DNA from: Verrucomicrobiota bacterium
Lineage (GTDB): Bacteria > Verrucomicrobiota > Verrucomicrobiia > Chthoniobacterales > Terrimicrobiaceae
Assembly (NCBI GenBank): GCA_026398275.1
Contig: JAPLTF010000027.1
Coordinates: forward strand, 1-64,000
Length of the DNA: 64,000 bases
Direction of reading: 5' to 3'
Shown: positions 27,875-59,410 of the stretch, piece by piece
How the letters are laid out: each line of letters opens with the position of its first letter
How positions within the stretch are numbered: the stretch's first letter is position 1
The notes under the pieces: model-generated
Told to the model about the DNA's origin: nothing
What the model saw: only the letters and a program-made list of their open reading frames with translations
Database searches by the model: none
Program-made: the position numbers and the translations under genes

Positions 27875-30800
27875 TCAGGGCTTGGCGACGATGTTCACGA
27901 GCTTGCCGGGGACGATGATGGCTTTGACGATCGTCACGCCGGCGGTGGCCTCGAGGACTTTTGCGCTGGCGCGGGCGGCGGCTTCGACCTCCTCGTTTGT
28001 GGCACCGACCGCCACGCGGATGCGGTCGCGCACTTTGCCGTTCACCTGGACAGGGATTTCGATTTCGGATTCCACGAGGAGCGACTCGTCGTGGACCGGC
28101 CACGGCTGAGCGGATGCGGCACCCTCGAAGCCAAGGCGCGACCAGAGCTCCTCGGCGAGGTGCGGGGCGAACGGGCTGAGCAGCGGGAGCAGGATCCGAA
28201 GCGCCTGAACCGGCCGCGGCTTCGCGTTCACAAACTCGTTCGTGCAAACCATCATCTGCGAAATTGCGGTGTTGAACGCGAGCAGTCCGAGATCGTGAGT
28301 CACCTTCTTGATCGTCTCGTGGACGACGCGTGCCTGCGCGGAGGTGAATGGGATATCCGCGAGATCCTGCAAGACGACCCACTCGCCCTCCTGGTTTTCC
28401 TGAAGTCCGAGGCGCCACACGCGTGCGAGGAAGCGATAGACTCCCTCCACGCCTTTTATGCTCCACGGCTTCATCTGCTCAAGGGGACCCATGAACATCT
28501 CGTAGAGCCTCAGTGAATCCGCACCATATTCGGCGATCACGCTGTCGGGTGTGATGACGTTGCCGCGGCTCTTGGACATTTTTTGTCCATCCGGCCCGAG
28601 GATCATTCCCTGGTTCACCAAACGCTGGAAAGGTTCCGGCGTGGAGAGGTGGCCGAGATCGAACAGGACTTTGTGCCAGAAACGGGCATAGAGAAGGTGC
28701 AGCACGGCGTGCTCGGTGCCGCCGACATAGAGATCCACCCCGCCGGGGGTTCCGGCGGATGCCATCCAGTAGTTTTCGGCGTCCGTCCCGATGAAGCGCG
28801 AGGAATTTTCCGGATCACAGAATCTCAGGTAATACCAGCACGAGCCCGCCCACTGCGGCATCGTGTTCGTCTCGCGCTCGGCCTTGTCCGTGTATTGCAC
28901 CCACTCGCGGGCCTTGCTGAGCGGGGGTTCCGGCGTTCCGGTGGGTTTGAAGTCGTCCATCTCCGGCTGCACGACCGGAAGTTCCCCCTCGGAAATCGCG
29001 CGGTGCCGTCCGCCCTCCCAGACAATCGGAAACGGCTCCCCCCAATACCGCTGACGGGAAAAGAGCCAGTCCCGCAGTTTGTAGTTGATCGTGGCGCGGC
29101 CCAGACCGTGCTCTTCCAGCCACGCGGAGATCGTGCGCTTGGCTTCGGCGGTCGGCAGACCGTCGAGGAAACCGGAGTTGACCGCCACTCCCTCGCCGGA
29201 GAAGCAGGTGCCCGTGGCCTGGGAATCCACAGGAGGCACGGGCGTCCCGCCCGTGTAGGCTCTGACTCCACTTAACCCAGCCCGGTGCGGATTGTTGACA
29301 ATGTATTCCACCAGCTTGGAAAAATGTCCGTCATCGCGAATCAGGCGGTCAAAATATTCCTCCTGCCAAACCGCCCCCTGCCGGTTCAGCGCCTTATTGA
29401 TTCCATGCGCAGTGAAGCTTTTCCAACTGTGAAGAGTTTTTGCGAGATCCTGCCCCTCGCGGAGCCTGAAAAGGACATGCACGTGGTTCGGCATGACCAC
29501 AAACGCGGAAAGGTCATAGCGGTCTCCGTCGAAATGTTTGAGCGCGCTCTCAACGAGCGAGGCAACAGCCGGGTCATTCAAAAGGCAGCTTCCCCTGCCG
29601 GCATCAAGCGCTTCCTCAATGCGGTTTGAGAAAAGGTCGTGAAATTCCTCCTGCTCTTCTGCCGAGAGCGGTTGTCTGTGGTTTGTGAGCCAGGCATCGG
29701 CTTCCAGATTCCAGCCTTTTACCACGTCTGCAGGAATGCTGTCCGCAAGGCGCCATGTCACGAAGTAATACTTCGAGTCCTGCTCCCAGTGCGGCAAATT
29801 GCGCTCGTGGATTTTGATTTCCTCGAGCTTTTCGAAGAAGGGCGTCAGCGTCTTCACGGGCGGGACGCCCGTGCCCCCTGTGCCCCCCGTGACCCCTGTG
29901 CCCCCTGTGCCCCCTGAAACCACGACCTCCCTCACCGGCAGGCCGAACTGCTGCGCAAAATCAAAATCCCGCTCGTCGTGAGCGGGCACGGCCATGATCG
30001 CGCCGGTTCCGTATCCCATGAGGACATAGTCGGCGATCCACACCGGGAGCGGCTCGCTGTTCACCGGATTGATGGCATGCGCGCCAGTGAAGACGCCGGT
30101 CTTTTCCTTGGCGAGGTCGGTGCGCTCGAGGTCGGACTTTGAACCCACGGTTTTTTGATACGCCTCAACAGCGTCCTTCTGGTCGGGCGTTGTGATCTGC
30201 GGGACGAGCGGGTGCTCCGGAGAAAGCACCATGTAGGTCGCGCCGAAGAGCGTGTCCGGCCGGGTTGTGAAGACGGGAATTTGGAATTTGGAATCTGCAA
30301 TTTGAAATTCCACCAGCGCGCCCTCGCTGCGGCCGATCCAGTTTTTTTGGAGGAGCTTGATCGAGTCCGGCCAGTCGAGACCTTCGAGCCCGTCGATGAG
30401 CCGTTCGGCGAATGCGGTGATCCGCAGCATCCACTGGCGGAGCGGCCGCCGCTCGACCGGGAATCCGCCGACCTCGCTCTTTCCATCCACGATCTCCTCG
30501 TTCGCCAGAACGGTGCCGAGTTCCGGGCACCAGTTCACCGGCATTTCGGCGACGTAGGCGAGCCGCACGCTGTCCCGCTCGTCGCCTGTGTAGGTGGAGA
30601 TCGGCTCGGCTTTGTTTGTCTCAGGATTGAACCACGCGTTATAGAGCTGCAGGAAAATCCATTGCGTCCAGCGGAAGTAGCCAGGGTCGGTGGTGCCGAA
30701 TTCACGCTGCCAGTCGTAGCTGAATCCCAGCGCCTGGAGCTGGCTGCGGAATCTTCCGATGTTGCGGGCCGTCGTGACCCGCGGATGTTGTCCGGTTTTG

Positions 30801-31102
30801 ATGGCGAACTGCTCGGCTGGCAGCCCGAAGGCATCCCAGCCCATCGGATGCAGGACGTTGAATCCGCGCATGCGGTGGTGGCGAGCGAGGATGTCGGTGG
30901 CCGTGTAGCCCTCGACGTGGCCGACATGGAGCCCGTCACCGCTCGGATACGGGAACATGTCGAGGATGTAGTATTTCGGGCGGGCGGGATCGAAGCCCGG
31001 ATCGTCGGGATTTGTGGCATGGAACGCCCCGGCGTCGAGCCAGTGCTGCTGCCAACGGGATTCGAATTCGGAGAACGGAAATTGCTTGCGCTGCGTGGAC
31101 AT
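27875..31102 (-). CDS. leuS: Leucyl-tRNA synthetase with in-frame RAYT (Y1 transposase) insertion
   Basis: [22 protein letters not shown] (HIGH region), [26 protein letters not shown]; residues about 396-628 read as a RAYT. Confidence 0.96.
29237..29255 (+). repeat. REP palindrome CACGGGCGTCCCGCCCGTG
   Basis: Exact reverse complement of 29855-29873. Confidence 0.85.
29855..29873 (-). repeat. REP palindrome CACGGGCGGGACGCCCGTG
   Basis: Exact reverse complement of 29237-29255. Confidence 0.85.
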
Positions 31103-59237: not shown

Positions 59238-59349
59238 GCGGGCGGTATAACTCCGGGGCGATACGTTGGCCACCGCTAATTCCGTCGAGGCATGACGCCG
59301 GGCGTGATTCAAATGTGGGTGAGGCTGGCGCGTCATGCTGGTAAAGGAG

Positions 59350-59410
59350 CATGGGCGTCTCGCCCGTGTGTGGCTCCGCTGCTCAGTCTCCAAACAGGCG
59401 GGACGCCTGT
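59350..59410. repeat. Two REP-like palindromes (CATGGGCGtctCGCCCGTG and ACAGGCGggaCGCCTGT)
   Basis: Direct reading; first closely resembles the leuS RAYT REP. Confidence 0.65.

Follow-up and report, generated by a model that had tools for sequence, protein, structure and literature searches.

A REP-associated tyrosine transposase embedded in a leucyl-tRNA synthetase belongs to a widespread class of protein-embedded RAYTs

How does a transposase come to lie inside an essential enzyme whose reading frame it leaves open? The question is raised by a leuS gene in a 64 000-nucleotide stretch of a Verrucomicrobiota genome (the window; GenBank assembly GCA_026398275.1, contig JAPLTF010000027.1, positions 1–64 000). 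On the minus strand at 27875–31102, one open frame encodes a leucyl-tRNA synthetase (LeuRS) of 1075 aa (P0001) with an embedded REP-associated tyrosine transposase (RAYT). An earlier note, made from the sequence alone, had read a near-complete RAYT in frame across both REP boundaries, and the analysis bears this out: all 1075 codons are open, and the insert matches both Pfam Y1_Tnp (PF01797, E 8.3e-9) and NCBIfam REP_Tyr_transpos (NF047646, 81.9 bits, cut-off 80).

The synthetase around the insert appears complete. The open reading frame scores 972 bits against TIGR00396 (leuS_bact, cut-off 548), in a match that stops at model position 359 and restarts at 363 on the other side of the insert. 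The HIGH-type motif (HVGH, 30917–30928, residues 59–62) and the KMSKS motif (28568–28582, residues 841–845) are intact, the editing-site motif AHDERD (29966–29983) lies immediately upstream of the insert (all three by motif reading on the minus strand), and the CP1 editing motif TTRPDT is also found. Judged by this full-length profile match and by its HIGH, KMSKS and CP1 editing motifs, the product can be assigned to the bacterial LeuRS family. Profile search of the genome, a 4.66 Mb, 98.7% complete draft in 117 contigs, found leuS in single copy; the remaining TIGR00396 matches are weak, fall under the cut-off and are consistent with related class I synthetases. A second, intact leuS that would make this one dispensable, a possibility that the earlier note had raised against its own reading, is thus rejected. 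Single copy, together with the purifying selection described below, suggests that the RAYT-bearing protein aminoacylates and edits. Residues 267–275 (QIADSKFQI, window 30278–30304) form a second length-variable in-frame stretch of CP1, which is longer and repeat-like in relatives (G001, IRNSEFGMISTDDSSNPQSAIRNPHS; G007; G329), so LeuRS seems to gather small in-frame inserts at another loop too.

By the LeuRS profile gap and alignment, the entire insert spans 29207–29917 (minus strand, residues 396–632) and replaces what in Thermus thermophilus LeuRS is an ~11-residue loop (between 364 and 376 of 1H3N). These two lines of evidence agree with the earlier placement in a loop of the CP1 editing domain; the span first given, 29225–29920 (residues ~396–628), was right in location and is refined here. 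The RAYT (HUH/Y1 transposase) domain itself occupies 29267–29845 (minus strand, residues 420–612) according to PF01797, NF047646 and an alignment to E. coli TnpAREP (4ER8), to which the RAYT family profile aligned via the same Y..NP motif (YI..NP). The HxH pair and candidate catalytic tyrosine proposed earlier could be located by motif reading as H540/H542 in MPNHVHV (29474–29494) and Y600 in EYIVNNP (29288–29308), both on the minus strand. An IS200/IS605 element was considered and rejected, since the insert has Y-x-x-x-N-P and not the Y-x-x-x-Q of class 1 TnpA, and has room for a RAYT only. An intein was likewise rejected, as the open reading frame has no Hint or intein Pfam match at E <= 0.001.

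Repeat comparison identified the sequences that frame the domain. The upstream REP (GGCACGGGCGTCCCGCCCGTG, 29855–29875, minus strand) encodes the left linker GTGVPPV; the downstream REP, inverted (29235–29255, plus strand), encodes the right linker TGGTPVPP; and degenerate 9-bp tandem repeats beside the upstream REP (29870–29917, minus strand) encode a glycine-rich linker. The inverted arms, 29228–29269 and 29841–29882, are 88% complementary. Both REPs therefore sit in the open frame as translated linkers, the property that defines intragenic in-frame REPs. Profile matches, HUH and Tyr-NP motifs, inverted flanking REPs and a dispersed cognate REP together identify the insert as a putative RAYT (TnpAREP). 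It departs from a free-standing RAYT gene in that the frame crosses both REPs and, as the earlier note had stated, continues into LeuRS with no stop after the RAYT. The companion statement, that no in-frame methionine precedes the RAYT, holds in part: no ATG occurs in the insert ahead of HxH, yet the left REP contains a GTG that might serve as a start codon and yield a separate RAYT product. Across the wider set of embedded RAYTs, the lack of an ATG is uninformative because host methionines lie in the tested stretch. The uninterrupted frame strongly implies that LeuRS and RAYT are translated as one fusion.

Structure prediction, which the earlier note had proposed for the 1075-aa protein, was only partly successful at full length. 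The full-length AlphaFold model has a mean pLDDT of 58 with a shallow alignment, is poor outside CP1, the RAYT and the C-terminal region, and is unreliable in the LeuRS catalytic core, and a CP1+RAYT fragment was folded in its place. This fragment gave two confident domains, mostly at pLDDT 85–95, joined by linkers below 50, and its CP1 portion superposed on the LeuRS editing domain 4K47 at 1.3 A across 137 columns. The RAYT is thus predicted to be a separately folding domain, carried on disordered REP-encoded linkers next to an intact editing domain. For both models, the highest-ranking Foldseek matches listed are LeuRS, so the assignment of the RAYT fold rests on the profile matches and not on a fold match.

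The REP of the leuS element is dispersed. Pattern searches of the genome found 36 copies at <= 2 mismatches (control, 0), frequently arranged as REPIN pairs; one REPIN-like pair, with 2 mismatches in each member, lies within the window at 59349–59410. Copies also occur as REPs or REPINs in other open frames of this genome, those of a histidine kinase, a ClpB-like or Clp-type ATPase and a glycosyltransferase (loci L178, L185 and L163). A second RAYT of this genome, embedded in a SAM methyltransferase, has its own, different dispersed REP family, which fits one RAYT per REP family and makes it plausible that the LeuRS-embedded RAYT mobilises its own. Among 26 relatives, REP copies showed no clear tracking of LeuRS RAYT presence: G002, which has no RAYT in LeuRS, holds 14 copies, while G025, which has one, holds only its own two.

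The earlier note had regarded such an arrangement as very unusual. It is not a single case: a RAYT occupies this same LeuRS loop in 12 species of at least three families, nearly all of the genomes compared being metagenome-assembled genomes. Seven carriers were found among the source genome (G000) and 57 relatives (the others are G001, G020, G025, G007, G010 and G056), all with an uninterrupted frame; a phylum-wide search added four from another family (G290, G293, G296 and G329), and GTDB contigs one more (L046). The suggested alignment of LeuRS orthologues thus showed a RAYT at the same loop in some relatives and, in most of the close ones, a short loop. One of these frames (L127, G293:C9) was reported at 2175 aa, running about 1100 codons beyond LeuRS, either as a further fusion or as a chance open frame.

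Two kinds of evidence bear on the history of these insertions. On the one hand, the ten LeuRS RAYTs other than those of G007 and G010 can be held together as one clade with an improved likelihood (p 0.717), and across these ten species RAYT distances correlate with LeuRS distances (Mantel r 0.62, p 0.0014), with the RAYT changing at roughly twice the rate of LeuRS. Synonymous divergence (dS) is no lower in the RAYT than in LeuRS, which makes recent transfer unlikely. On the other hand, a single clade of all 12 is rejected by the AU test (p 0.030), a rejection that is only moderate and involves long branches, and the REP of G007 differs from that of the leuS element; together these make two or more invasions of the loop probable, with the RAYTs of G007 and G010 (one genus) probably an independent insertion. 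Presence and absence on the LeuRS tree require seven changes, at least six of them forced, and near-sisters differ (G025 from G023, G020 from G011). At the LeuRS insertion site, G002 has a solo REP (GGGAGCACGGGCGGGACGCCTGTGCTCCC) and G021/G016 a decayed one. These look like leftovers of RAYT loss, or alternatively may derive from insertion of a solo REP. We infer an old insertion, mainly vertical descent, many losses and some reinvasion, while the patchy presence could alternatively have come about through reinsertion instead of loss.

LeuRS is one of many hosts. In the source genome, in-frame RAYTs also occur in the sole alanyl-tRNA synthetase (AlaRS), in the SAM methyltransferase mentioned above and in a DNA methylase; in AlaRS, profile positions 1–375 and 376–847 adjoin the insert directly, and the RAYT is bounded by perfect 26-bp inverted REPs. 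The REPs of the DNA methylase RAYT (L011, G000:C37) start with GTAG (GTAGAAGCGGCGTCCCGCC), a tag known from GTAG REPs. Long open frames (>= 100 aa upstream and >= 80 aa downstream of the RAYT) surround 35 of the best 80 RAYT loci from GTDB genomes, a proportion that is not a population frequency, as most of the seeds for the search were RAYTs embedded in LeuRS. Nearly all of the 35 are recognisable proteins, with one repetitive frame (L060) having no recognised host; the census covered RAYTs that lie in frame and in the sense direction of the host gene. Profile search named as hosts ValRS, AlaRS, CarB, IspG, XseA, FabZ, YoaA/DinG, TsaC, RlmB, MetH, adenosine deaminase, HsdR, N6 methylases and a radical-SAM protein with a B12-binding domain, to which the phylum search added PriA. 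A radical-SAM protein with a RAYT is also present in Pontiellaceae bacterium B12227 (L079), the record of which bears no MAG label. Domains of the same host protein flank the RAYT on both sides in AlaRS, CarB, XseA, ValRS, IspG, YoaA/DinG, PriA, MetH, HsdR and others, and in-frame RAYTs in core proteins span several bacterial phyla.

RAYTs group according to the host gene and not according to the species (36 label changes vs 57.6 in shuffles, with 0 of 200 as low), in groups that for some hosts cross phyla. Of 62 embedded RAYTs, 43 have inverted repeats on their flanks, as against seven of 124 mismatched flank pairs, and hence complete REP-flanked units were inserted. Past the RAYT domain the frame stays open for a median of 405 aa in embedded RAYTs and 15 aa in free ones, a contrast partly built into the class definitions. 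The embedded RAYT in LeuRS is real, and is one of a widespread class that extends further than first described.

What kind of element is it? The RAYT is under strong purifying selection, similar to that on LeuRS: its dN/dS is 0.143 (G000/G001) and 0.038 (G020/G025), against 0.07–0.10 in the LeuRS flanks, with dS close to saturation for some pairs. HxH is retained in all 62 embedded RAYTs and the catalytic tyrosine is clearly lost in G010 only, by a strict motif pattern whose other failures mostly still show a tyrosine (L096 is ambiguous). The embedded RAYT is probably still competent, while in G010 activity was not required for its persistence. The reading that we favour, and consider likely, is that a RAYT/REP element became embedded in a tolerant surface loop of CP1 and has since been translated together with a working synthetase, to which it adds a domain that folds on its own. 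A stop-less RAYT with its REP flanks would have inserted in frame, and LeuRS and RAYT would from then on have been made as one fusion protein, the RAYT part of which would still nick and join single-stranded REPs and may act for the dispersed REPINs. Residence in an essential gene would shelter the element, as only precise in-frame deletion removes the RAYT, and this benefit would give rise to an intein-like pattern of one clade per insertion site, patchy presence and repeated loss, with no splicing. A bolder version supposes a class of transposons that live within proteins, their transposase existing only as an unspliced internal domain, such that LeuRS, AlaRS, ValRS and others double as active REP transposases while the host gene guards the element from loss; this we hold tentatively, at somewhat less than even chances.

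The alternative that survives best is that the RAYT is a neutral passenger, an old in-frame insertion tolerated in the loop and constrained only to fold without harm to LeuRS. The loop site, the flexible linkers, the twofold faster evolution and the missing tyrosine of G010 are all in keeping with this; fold maintenance alone does not, however, explain HxH in every embedded RAYT or the retention of REPs at both ends across long divergence, and we consider a pure passenger unlikely. It is less probable still that the RAYT has been co-opted for a host function, such as regulation through REPs or the binding of nucleic acids by LeuRS, and has ceased to mobilise REPs. Long vertical retention under strong purifying selection could be expected of such a domain, as could its survival in G010 with no catalytic tyrosine, but sister species lose the RAYT without replacement, a different RAYT/REP has probably entered the same loop independently, catalytic residues are kept nearly everywhere and the same type of element sits in dozens of unrelated hosts, all of which fits a mobile element better than a single host function. 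Thus, of the earlier phrase ‘tolerating or domesticating’, the in-frame RAYT in LeuRS is real, while domestication does not follow from it, given catalytic residues and cognate REPs that are kept and a RAYT that is repeatedly absent in sisters. Similarly improbable is homing, by which the RAYT would recopy itself into empty leuS alleles, as an intein does with its homing endonuclease, and patchiness would reflect gain. Site-specific clades, patchy presence and the likelihood of at least two invasions of the loop all suit homing, but no recent homing is seen in RAYT distances that follow those of the host and a dS not below it, and the REP remnants suggest loss. An assembly chimera, conceivable for a window taken from a draft of 117 contigs, can be dismissed, as the same in-frame junctions recur in the separate assemblies of 12 diverged species and purifying selection extends across the insert.

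With the RAYT/TnpAREP family, and with motifs like those of subclass 2.4 (Quentin et al., 2018; PMC6006769), the element shares HxH, WQ, Y-x-x-x-NP, inverted flanking REPs and cognate dispersed REPs. Subclass 2.4 RAYTs even carry REPs within tnpA with the frame unbroken, but described RAYTs are free-standing genes, whereas that of leuS has no stop of its own and lies within an essential protein as one of its domains. The same survey (PMC6006769) set aside RAYT proteins of unusual length, taking them for fusions or errors. In-frame REPs inside genes are also known, the GTAG ones being most numerous in the verrucomicrobium Opitutus terrae (Di Nocera et al., 2013; PMC3733652), and like the palindromic elements of Rickettsia they place in-frame palindromes in conserved proteins, including tRNA synthetases. 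Those inserts are mostly 20–30 aa and reach 43–82 aa (PMC3733652), in contrast to the complete transposase of ~190 aa carried in leuS. Inteins with homing endonucleases have in common with it an in-frame mobile insert in essential genes, clades per insertion site and patchy presence; they differ in having a Hint domain and splicing, whereas the leuS RAYT shows no sign of splicing and stays in the protein. Our search of the open-access literature, with subscription journals and preprints mostly outside it, turned up no description of an entire RAYT translated as a domain of a host or essential protein.

An unspliced mobile-element enzyme that persists time and again, and across long divergence, as a domain within essential proteins would place RAYT embedding alongside inteins and introns as a way of living in conserved genes. 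It makes the persistence of RAYTs and REPs testable in terms of essential-gene shelter and borrowed expression, and offers natural examples of sites where core enzymes take a whole extra domain. For annotation, ‘unexpectedly long’ RAYT or synthetase proteins are not necessarily errors.

Two further loci show other arrangements. In G002 (L187, G002:C330), two near-identical tandem RAYTs with REPs between them share a single 717-aa open frame. On a Candidatus Peregrinibacteria contig (L119), a RAYT lies upstream of a Ham1-family domain in one frame, an apparent N-terminal fusion.
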